64,000 nt of DNA from Tetragenococcus koreensis (GTDB taxonomy: Bacteria; Bacillota; Bacilli; Lactobacillales; Enterococcaceae). The notes beneath the pieces are model-generated. The model saw only the letters and a program-made list of their open reading frames with translations, searched no databases and was not told where the DNA came from. The DNA is taken from assembly GCF_003795145.1 (NCBI RefSeq), contig NZ_CP027786.1:1116001-1180000 (forward strand). The letters run 5' to 3'. A program made the translations under genes and the position numbers. This document shows positions 16,463-31,644 of the stretch, piece after piece. Within the stretch, counting starts at the first letter, position 1, and the number at the start of each line of letters is the position of its first letter.

Positions 16463-16618
16463 GGGGGCTGTGACATAAGTTCCTTTGATAATAAAATACC
16501 CGAACTATATTTGATGAGCTTTCCTAATTGTCGTGAATTTGCGACGAGTAACCGCAGGAGCAAACTCTCTTATAGTTCGGGCATTTTTGTCTTATCTGTA
16601 CTTATGTCACAGCGCCTT
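16463..16618 (+). repeat. Palindromic 3'-end element A (single-core copy)
   Basis: A 156-bp intergenic element. The outer arms GCTGTGACATAAGT (16467-16480) and ACTTATGTCACAGC (16600-16613) are exact complements. An inner 11-bp stem CCCGAACTATA / TATAGTTCGGG (16499-16509, 16571-16581) encloses a core with GCGACGAGTAACCGCAGGAG (16541-16560). The right arm is followed by GCC and five T, so read after gloA it can act as a large terminator. A related element at 30431-30735 has the same arms, inner stem and core, in the same sense relative to its upstream gene. Function unknown; a structured 3' RNA or a miniature mobile element are both possible. Confidence 0.75.
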
Positions 16619-29991: not shown

Positions 29992-30375
29992 TCATTTATC
30001 AATTGCCTTACGCCAAAAAGTAGGATAGTTCCGTTTTTCATCAAGATTAAATTGGATAATTTCGTAAAGTAGTTGGTAATTGATCGTCTCTTCCCATTTA
30101 ATTCGAAAAGTACTTTTGCCTTGTCCGTAACCACAAGCTGTGATTCTATCGGAAAATTCCTTGATACCTGCAACTTCTGGCGAAACAGTGATATGTTTTT
30201 TTGTTTTATTAAAAGAAATAATAAATGTTTCATTATAAGTGTACATTGGTTCATTCCACTTAAAAACCAACTGTAGTTGTGAGAATTTGGCTTGAACCGA
30301 ATCCATAAGTTCAGAAAATTTTTCCTTATGTTCTTCTTGATCAATTGTCGCAATATATTCTTGTAATGTCGTCAA
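29992..30375 (-). CDS. DUF1801 family protein (YdhG/frataxin-like fold)
   Basis: A 127-residue protein with the DUF1801 motifs: EYIATIDQEEHKEKFSELMDSV at the N-terminus, FKWNEPMYTYNETFIISF, KKHITVSPEV and a C-terminal RNYPTFWRKA. The Bacillus relative YdhG (Fra) has been described as a frataxin-like iron chaperone, but assignment here is by family resemblance only. It lies downstream of the repeat element and metQ on the same strand. Confidence 0.7.
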   Translation of the reverse strand: MTTLQEYIATIDQEEHKEKFSELMDSVQAKFSQLQLVFKWNEPMYTYNETFIISFNKTKKHITVSPEVAGIKEFSDRITACGYGQGKSTFRIKWEETINYQLLYEIIQFNLDEKRNYPTFWRKAIDK

Positions 30376-30430
30376 CAGTCTTCTCCTTTTTATTTCATTA
30401 CAACTAAACGCTGAAAAAATACATAAAAAT

Positions 30431-30735
30431 AGAGCTGTGACATAAGACTATTTGATAAAAATATCCGAACTACAGAGAGCTTGCTCCTGCGGTTACTCGT
30501 CGCACAAAACATTGCTCCTGCGGTTACTCGTCGCACAAAACATTGCTCCTGCGGTTACTCGTCGCACAAAACACTGCTCCTGCGGTTACTCGTCGCACAA
30601 AACACTGCTCCTGCGGTTACTCGTCGCACAAAACACTGCTCCTGCGGTTACTTGTCGCAAATCCACAATGATTAGCAAATCTCAATAAATATAGTTCGGA
30701 TTTTTTTAACTTGTTTTTACTTATGTCACAGCTCC
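30431..30735 (-). repeat. Palindromic 3'-end element B with expanded core
   Basis: A 305-bp relative of the element at 16463-16618, between metQ and the DUF1801 gene. The outer arms GAGCTGTGACATAAG (30432-30446) and CTTATGTCACAGCTC (30720-30734) are exact complements. The inner stem ATCCGAACTA / TAGTTCGGAT lies at 30463-30472 and 30692-30701. The core holds six tandem copies of a 31-bp unit. Read in the metQ direction, the distal arm is followed by TATTTTTAT, so the whole can act as a large terminator. In both elements the core faces the same way relative to the upstream gene. Confidence 0.78.
30482..30660 (-). repeat. Six tandem copies of a 31-bp unit
   Basis: The unit is TGCTCCTGCGGTTACTCGTC followed by GCACAAAACAT or GCACAAAACAC. 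Copies start at 30482, 30513, 30544, 30575, 30606 and 30637. The copies are nearly identical: the first two end in T, the next three in C, and the last has one C-to-T change and a diverged tail like the one in element A. The copies adjoin with no spacers. Frames through it are open in all registers only because no unit contains a stop; I do not treat it as coding. Confidence 0.92.
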
Positions 30736-30745
30736 ATGTGCTTTT

Positions 30746-31585
30746 TTAAAATAGCGGAATAACTGCGCCTTGGTATTCTTCATCCATATAATCTTTTACT
30801 TTGTCACTTTGCAACGCTTCAACCAAAGCTTCAGTTGCTGGCGCATCTTCATCCCCATTACGGACAGCTACAATATTAGCATAAGTTTGTGCAGCTTCAG
30901 AATCTTCCCCTTCAATAGCTAAAGCATCATCTTGAACATCAAAACCTGCTTCTAAAGCATAGTTAGCATTGATTACAGCTAAGTCCACGTCTTCCACAGT
31001 ACGAGGAATTTGAGAAGCATCTAGTTCTGTTAGTTCTAGATTTTTTGGATTTTCTTCAATGTCGTCGATCGTAGCTGTGATGTCACTATCATCTTCTAAC
31101 TTAATTAAGCCAGCTTCTTCCAGCAATAATAACGCGCGAGCGCCATTAGTAGCATCATTAGGAATGGCAATTTCAGCGCCATTTTCTACATCATCAACCG
31201 AATCTGTTTGACCAGGATATAATCCCAGTGGTTCATAGTGAATTTGAGCTGCTGGAACTAAATCTGTATCATTTTCTTCATTAAAGTTATCTAAATAAGG
31301 CTCATGTTGGAAGAAGTTTGCATCAAGATCGCCATCAGCTAACGCTTGGTTAGGTAGCACATAATCATCAAAAACTTCAACTTCTAAATCATACCCTTCA
31401 TCAGCCAGATCATCTTCTACTTGATTTAAAATCTCAGCATGAGGCGTAGAACTAGCGCCTACCGTTAATGTCTCATTTTCATCCGAGCCACTGCCTTGGT
31501 CATTACCACCTGCACAAGCTCCTAATCCAACAGCTGTCAATCCTAGTACCCCAGCATACAATGTCTTTTTCAAACTTTTCTTCAT
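30746..31585 (-). CDS. metQ: Methionine-type ABC transporter substrate-binding lipoprotein
   Basis: A 279-residue NlpA/MetQ-family binding lipoprotein. Signal peptide MKKSLKKTLYAGVLGLTAVG ends at lipobox LGACAGG. Family motifs are VGASSTPHAEILNQV, FDDYVLPNQALADGDLDANFFQHEPYL and ATNGARALLLLEEAGLI. The start at 31585 has GGAGGAG 8 bases upstream. The mature protein is strongly acidic, as for opuAC. No metN or metI gene adjoins it, so it is an orphan subunit that may serve an ABC core elsewhere. A T-box leader upstream makes amino-acid-dependent control likely; methionine fits the family. Confidence 0.9.
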   Translation of the reverse strand: MKKSLKKTLYAGVLGLTAVGLGACAGGNDQGSGSDENETLTVGASSTPHAEILNQVEDDLADEGYDLEVEVFDDYVLPNQALADGDLDANFFQHEPYLDNFNEENDTDLVPAAQIHYEPLGLYPGQTDSVDDVENGAEIAIPNDATNGARALLLLEEAGLIKLEDDSDITATIDDIEENPKNLELTELDASQIPRTVEDVDLAVINANYALEAGFDVQDDALAIEGEDSEAAQTYANIVAVRNGDEDAPATEALVEALQSDKVKDYMDEEYQGAVIPLF

Positions 31586-31644
31586 CTTCAATCTCCTCCA
31601 AAAATTTTTTTTCATTCGAACAAAAGATCCAATTTTTTTCCACT

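Follow-up and report, generated by a model that had tools for sequence, protein, structure and literature searches.

The window analysed here comprises 64,000 nucleotides of Tetragenococcus koreensis (contig NZ_CP027786.1). Between a metQ-type NlpA lipoprotein gene and a DUF1801 gene, nested inverted repeats surround six 31-bp units at positions 30431-30735, and a second, one-unit copy lies elsewhere in the window. The features are the following:

16464..16616, plus strand: one-unit copy, filling the gap between convergent genes
29992..30375, minus strand: DUF1801 gene, downstream, with its start codon 55 bp past the element
30431..30735, minus strand: complete six-unit element, flanked by the metQ-type gene and the DUF1801 gene
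30431..30447, minus strand: right outer arm, matching the IS1182-family terminal repeat GGGGCTGTGACATAAGT at 14 of 17 positions
30456..30472, minus strand: inner arm, 3' side in minus-strand sense, inverted repeat with covariation in the family
30482..30659, minus strand: six-unit array, with the core GCGACGAGTAACCGCAGGAG and an 11-bp linker in each 31-bp unit
30692..30708, minus strand: inner arm, 5' side in minus-strand sense, inverted repeat with covariation in the family
30719..30735, minus strand: left outer arm (minus-strand sense), matching the IS1182-family terminal repeat GGGGCTGTGACATAAGT at 16 of 17 positions
30746..31615, minus strand: metQ-type NlpA lipoprotein gene (Pfam Lipoprotein_9), its stop codon 10 bp before the element

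The outer arms (30429-30446 and 30720-30737) are 18 nt long with 94% complementarity and contain a perfect 15-bp stretch (GAGCTGTGACATAAG/CTTATGTCACAGCTC), while the inner arms (30456-30472 and 30692-30708) are 17 nt long, also with 94% complementarity. TRF reports the array at 30482-30659 with 98% matches; its six units follow each other at a spacing of exactly 31 bp, and the 20-bp core GCGACGAGTAACCGCAGGAG, read on the minus strand as is metQ, bears one substitution in one of the six. The whole element folds better than its shuffled versions, none of 100 being as good on either strand (z -4.6 and -6.3), and the Rfam 15 covariance models return 0 matches up to E 5 within 30300-30900. Inverted-repeat reading and TRF hence recover the outer stem, the inner stem and the six exact-phase repeats described in the initial annotation, with the core on the metQ sense strand, and the single-core relative that it placed at 16.46 kb is real (16464-16616).

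BLAST searches of the 2.73-Mb genome return 51 matches at E <= 0.001 with the six-unit element and 83 with the one-unit copy, these counts comprising several matches per copy, some on both strands. Thirty-one loci were read, namely 28 arm-bearing copies, so that the array at metQ is not a one-off duplication, and three loci where the core lies in a different context (98125, 1801650, and 1472286). The arm-bearing copies are dispersed, are devoid of any transposase gene, and span 120-364 bp, some of their ends having been set by hand. When a unit is defined as lying within 4 mismatches of the core, 11 copies have none, 10 have one, two have two, two have three, and one copy each has four, six, and eight; 21 of the 28 thus carry one or no unit. 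The copies thus range from 0 to 8 units. The earlier proposal that the tandem part is an expansion inside an existing element is supported. By eye, the inner segment looks flipped relative to the subterminal segments in four of the 28 copies (16464-16616 and G000:C1 46582, 134839, and 552204), which look as if they had been inverted between the inner arms. A second repeat type of the same genome exhibits outer arms of the CTGGGACA type and other inner arms (L060, L076, and L359, that is G000:C1 98125, 1801650, and 281717), with the core present in two of the three. Yet another repeat, at G000:C1 525600-525715 (L265 1-116), is 97-100% identical at 10 further places in the genome and also occurs in sister genomes.

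A covariance model derived from 14 of these copies (A1, R1) identifies the family in eight of the nine genomes of the genus, the exception being G102; its counts per genome include both strands of some copies. BLAST matches, some of them to the core only, are found in 23 of 105 genomes of the taxonomic family, this one included. Relatives at 60-80% identity are reported in 110 plasmid records, 109 of them from Enterococcus, and the 20 among the matches listed have 72% identity. On the E. faecium plasmid NZ_CP025426.1 (L250), a 72% relative of the one-unit element is located between two LacI-type regulator genes. The sister genome G100 holds nine alike copies of 161-162 bp, among which the eight of 161 nt have pairwise identities of 95.7-100% (mean 97.8%); the nine, alike but with different flanks, point to a recent burst of movement. 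The G100 copies L318-L325 combine ISSau3-like ends with an alternative core containing the inverted repeat CCTGC..GCAGG, and the flanks of the G100 copies are often, by eye, short inverted rather than direct repeats.

The outer arms are those of the IS1182 family. In the one-unit copy, the left arm matches the family terminal repeat at 17 of 17 positions and the right arm at 16 of 17. Two complete ISs of 1799 and 1795 bp in G057, a genome of another genus in the same family, carry GGGGCTGTGACATAAGT at both ends, with the arms facing each other around a 531-codon transposase gene. Their transposases are assigned to NCBIfam NF033551 IS1182 with 300 and 301 bits (cut-off 270) and also return Pfam DDE_Tnp_1, and two further G057 copies (L373 and L375) possess the same outer and inner arms without the core. 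Ends with 0-3 differences from GGGGCTGTGACATAAGT also delimit IS1182 elements read on four plasmids, one each from E. faecium, E. gilvus, L. plantarum, and L. reuteri; a matching IS1182 transposase is present in other Lactobacillales. The ends of ISSau3 are a variant of GGGGCTGTGACATAAGT with 3 and 5 differences, and its left end, GAGGCTGGGACATAAAT, is one base away from the young G100 copies. Within the genome under study, CTGTGACATAAGT occurs at 37 sites at <=1 mismatch, as compared with 2 for the control; 34 of them fall in core- or arm-bearing elements, and the remaining three are located in an arm-like repeat without core (281717) and elsewhere (801412 and 965086). In five of six sampled genomes of genus g19, GNCTGKGACAWAAGT, mostly as GGCTGGGACAAAAGT, is present 23-60 times per genome, and in the eight stretches read (L362-L369; G620, G396, G631, and G553) it forms one end of a ~190-bp composite repeat.

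The loci are positioned at gene ends. Fourteen of the 31 lie between convergent genes, as compared with 10 of 74 element-free gaps (Fisher p 0.0008), and one lies between divergent genes, as compared with 20 of 74 (Fisher p 0.006); the control gaps, of at least 60 bp, come from the same stretches, genes were defined by a simple ORF rule, and two loci overlapping short ORFs count as neither convergent nor divergent. A stop codon is found at most 20 bp away from 20 of the 28 arm-bearing copies, or from 21 of the 31 loci when the core-only ones are included. The right flank is T-rich in 18 of the 28 copies, the T-rich background being 10.6% of random 8-mers over the whole window, the left flank is A-rich in 16, and both hold in 11. 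A terminator pattern scan covering loops of 3-8 found no terminator.

The stems display compensatory changes, as the initial annotation expected of a structured 3' element. In alignment A2, whose 45 rows are paralogues and relatives, 24 of 46 pairs are changed on both sides, and the doubly changed cells amount to 80. Shuffled alignments give 41.6 +/- 6.4 such cells, none of 500 attaining the observed value, and sliding the partners yields 42 at most. This alignment omits the multi-unit copies, the flipped and truncated copies of the genome under study, and seven of the nine G100 copies, and retains three flipped-looking copies from relatives (L277, L329, and L344). For the 14 copies of the genome alone, 44 of 500 shuffles attain the nine doubly changed pairs, and none of 500 attains the covariation score or the percentage paired. 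Such covariation could also stem from template switching between the arms or from shared ancestry.

At eight sites, 37 orthologous stretches of sister species were read, these being the ones with apparently joinable flank matches, a subset of the sister genomes. Seven sites belong to the genome under study (16464 and 30431 in window coordinates; 526449, 532342, 2140332, 2141608, and 2146441 in genome coordinates), and the eighth is a G100 locus. A short terminator-like stem-loop, usually between A and T tracts, stands in the element's place in 31 of the 37 stretches. Five possess the element (30431 in G103, 2140332 in G103 and G101, 526449 in G103, and 2141608 in G100, the last without its left outer arm), and one, 16464 in G103, ends at a contig end. 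In 27 of the 31 stem-loop stretches, an automatic finder reports a hairpin at or below -8.3 kcal/mol, a value attained in 54 of 300 random window stretches; in the other four (30431 in G104, 2146441 in G099, and 526449 in G098 and G097), the finder chose another, weak hairpin and the stem-loop was called by eye. Among element-free gaps of the genome under study, the same cut-off is reached by 7 of the 10 convergent ones, 13 of the 44 tandem ones, and 3 of the 20 divergent ones, as expected if hairpins mark gene ends, and the form of the sister stem-loops suggests that they terminate transcription. For 16464 in G100 the left flank alone is confirmed, and at 30431 an intervening gene in G097, G099, and partly G098 makes only the metQ side comparable. 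All 37 comparisons are between species and not between strain pairs, and the replacement step itself was not seen.

The initial annotation, which named no described family that fits, had missed both the IS1182-family identity of the outer arms and the terminator-like hairpin that sister species hold in the element's place. We consider it very probable that the element is a non-autonomous IS1182-type MITE that takes the place of host terminators and probably does their work, an explanation that rests on the copies, their IS1182 ends, their gene-end position, the sister stem-loops, the covariation, and the difference in unit number. An IS1182-type transposase would move the element in trans, recognizing stem-loops and replacing them without target duplication; in this way the element would have come to occupy the former position of an intrinsic terminator. 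Its long stems, in many cases bordered by A and T tracts, would most likely end the transcription of the neighbouring gene or genes, while the 20-bp core in the inner loop may have grown by slippage into tandem copies, from 0 to 8 units. The hairpin-for-element pattern matches that published for IS1272, a member of the IS1182 family. Counting against this explanation, the genome under study yielded no IS with such ends when scanned with CTGTGACATAAGT at <=1 mismatch, a search that ends differing at two or more positions would escape; likewise, covariation is weaker in the genome's own copies alone, and 11 of 28 copies lack a unit.

An ordinary MITE insertion beside a terminator, followed by loss of the redundant old hairpin, would result in the same arrangement as direct replacement, and many of the flank matches between species are just 73-88% identical, so that intermediates could be lost. 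However, neither a hairpin remnant nor a target duplication was noticed by eye at the sites read, and the IS1182 family is known for hairpin replacement, according to the available parts of PMC5678879 and PMC4923244. We regard this two-step course as rather unlikely.

Judged by the repeats in which it resides, the core is a module separate from the IS1182-type arms, since the Bacillales repeats that contain it are mostly devoid of such arms. The exact 20-mer is found in at least 120 stretches of the genome collection, its hosts among the matches listed being Enterococcus, Tetragenococcus, genera that we take to belong to Bacillales, and one metagenome bin labelled Aquisalimonas. It is present in 7 of 398 sampled genomes of the class and in 1 of 398 of the phylum, the genome under study included in both cases, and its reversed control in none of either. 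Among 130 core clusters outside this genome, 27 are surrounded by inverted repeats of at least 10 and two by the pattern TGKGACA with its partner, a lower bound, as at least four more have arms that are related by eye (L152, L187 from Tetragenococcus muriaticus, L205, and L223). Core arrays outside this genome comprise 2-12 units with a spacing of 31-41 bp. The longest, of 12 units, belongs to Paenisporosarcina OV554 (L191), and the core is common to otherwise unlike repeats of Bacillales and Enterococcaceae (L113-L232 and L376-L381). Outside clusters lie between convergent genes in 23 of 97 cases, as compared with 39 of 314 (p 0.009), not counting 21 further clusters that fall within a called ORF and 24 close to an edge; they are not independent, because several come from one genome. 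A literature search found no paper on the core letters, which falls short of proving that none is in print, and no related paper on the letters of the Bacillales core-bearing repeats.

This conservation of the core over genera, its tandem gain in several lineages, and the compensatory changes in the stems would suit a structured 3' regulatory RNA or a sponge, as the initial annotation had considered, whose array is kept since the AGGAG-bearing core binds ribosomes or a protein. The strand of the core relative to the upstream gene bears on this reading in two ways: in the tandem settings of the genome under study, two ORF-overlapping loci being set apart, the core is sense in 11 of 14 and antisense in three (p 0.057), which favours a sponge or at least does not speak against it, whereas the 64 tandem settings at named loci elsewhere comprise 44 with an antisense and 20 with a sense core (p 0.004). 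Moreover, at the 14 loci between convergent genes the core is necessarily antisense to one neighbouring gene, a single 31-bp unit folds no better than shuffles, 21 of the 28 copies carry one or no unit, and the Rfam search returned no match up to E 5. An RNA or sponge function as the reason for the array is therefore distinctly unlikely, and a CsrA or ribosome sponge is considered less likely on the same evidence. A type III toxin-antitoxin RNA, suggested by the tandem units, was dropped, the copies being dispersed at gene ends. A phage origin was set aside because the one-unit element returned 0 matches in phage records and the core was found in two viral-contig stretches. That terminator hairpins evolved in place and were made alike by gene conversion, without transposition, is very improbable; sister species do have terminator-like hairpins at these sites, but copies of 120-364 bp with IS1182 ends reside at unrelated loci, and the alike G100 copies have different flanks.

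In sum, the copies very probably form an IS1182-type MITE family that occupies the position of terminator-like hairpins and has, as a separate part, a core prone to tandem expansion. This links a class of palindromes at gene ends to a transposition mechanism published, in the portions of the literature available, for a staphylococcal IS; the footprint of this mechanism is seen at several loci, where sister species still show the old hairpin. Should the copies act as terminators, the selfish element would spread with little harm, because it does the job of what it removes. The 20-bp core is set apart from the arms by its conservation across Bacilli in otherwise unlike repeats. On a bolder reading, IS1182-type MITEs would spread by capturing host terminators, whose function they then perform, while the tandem core, an independently travelling module shared between orders of Bacilli, would be a variable-number dial, a longer hairpin loop tuning readthrough into the next gene. 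The metQ site may provide an example, with six units here against one, in the opposite orientation, in the sister species G103; the dial function of the unit number is a guess, and the reading as a whole is doubtful.

The element shares with BOX a build of paired end modules and a middle module of variable number (0-8 units here). The BOX letters presumably differ from those of the element. In Streptococcus pneumoniae and S. suis, BOX has paired ends around a middle module present from 0 to many times, and the S. suis version keeps the middle module but has different ends around it; the available parts of this account mention no tie to IS1182 ends or to hairpin replacement (PMC3049150). BrickBuilt of Porphyromonas gingivalis is, like the element, a MITE holding an internal tandem array, a minisatellite whose unit number varies between strains, but its units are of 23 bp, it belongs to another phylum, and hairpin replacement is not described in the text available (PMC4596501). 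The SPRITE of S. pneumoniae is likewise dispersed, terminator-like, and enriched at gene 3' ends; however, as far as the same source is available, it is a simple hairpin with short ends and no core array, and its authors found no comparable empty site (PMC3049150). CGTC/GTAG-tagged REPs were set aside because the ends of the element are IS1182 ends, and the accessible portion of the source names no Firmicutes among the hosts of CGTC repeats (PMC3733652). A review of MITEs does not mention IS1182 in its available part.

The short, multi-copy IS1182-family derivatives reported in Methanosarcina acetivorans, MITEs of 160 and 169 bp related to ISMac2, are similar in kind. They differ in being archaeal and in having ends of 25-26 bp, and the part of the article available mentions neither a tandem core nor a terminator position (PMC3852290). 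IS1272 itself, as described in the accessible portions of PMC5678879 and PMC4923244, targets stem-loops, terminators among them, and replaces the inverted repeat without target duplication, some copies having targets that are not inverted repeats (PMC5678879). Unlike the ISs of the IS1272/IS1182 type, the element is of 120-364 bp, lacks a transposase gene, is present in many copies, and possesses a second internal stem and a core array. With these ISs it shares, within the same published scope, the family terminal repeats, a stem-loop at the unoccupied site, the absence, by eye here, of target duplication, and terminators among the probable targets.
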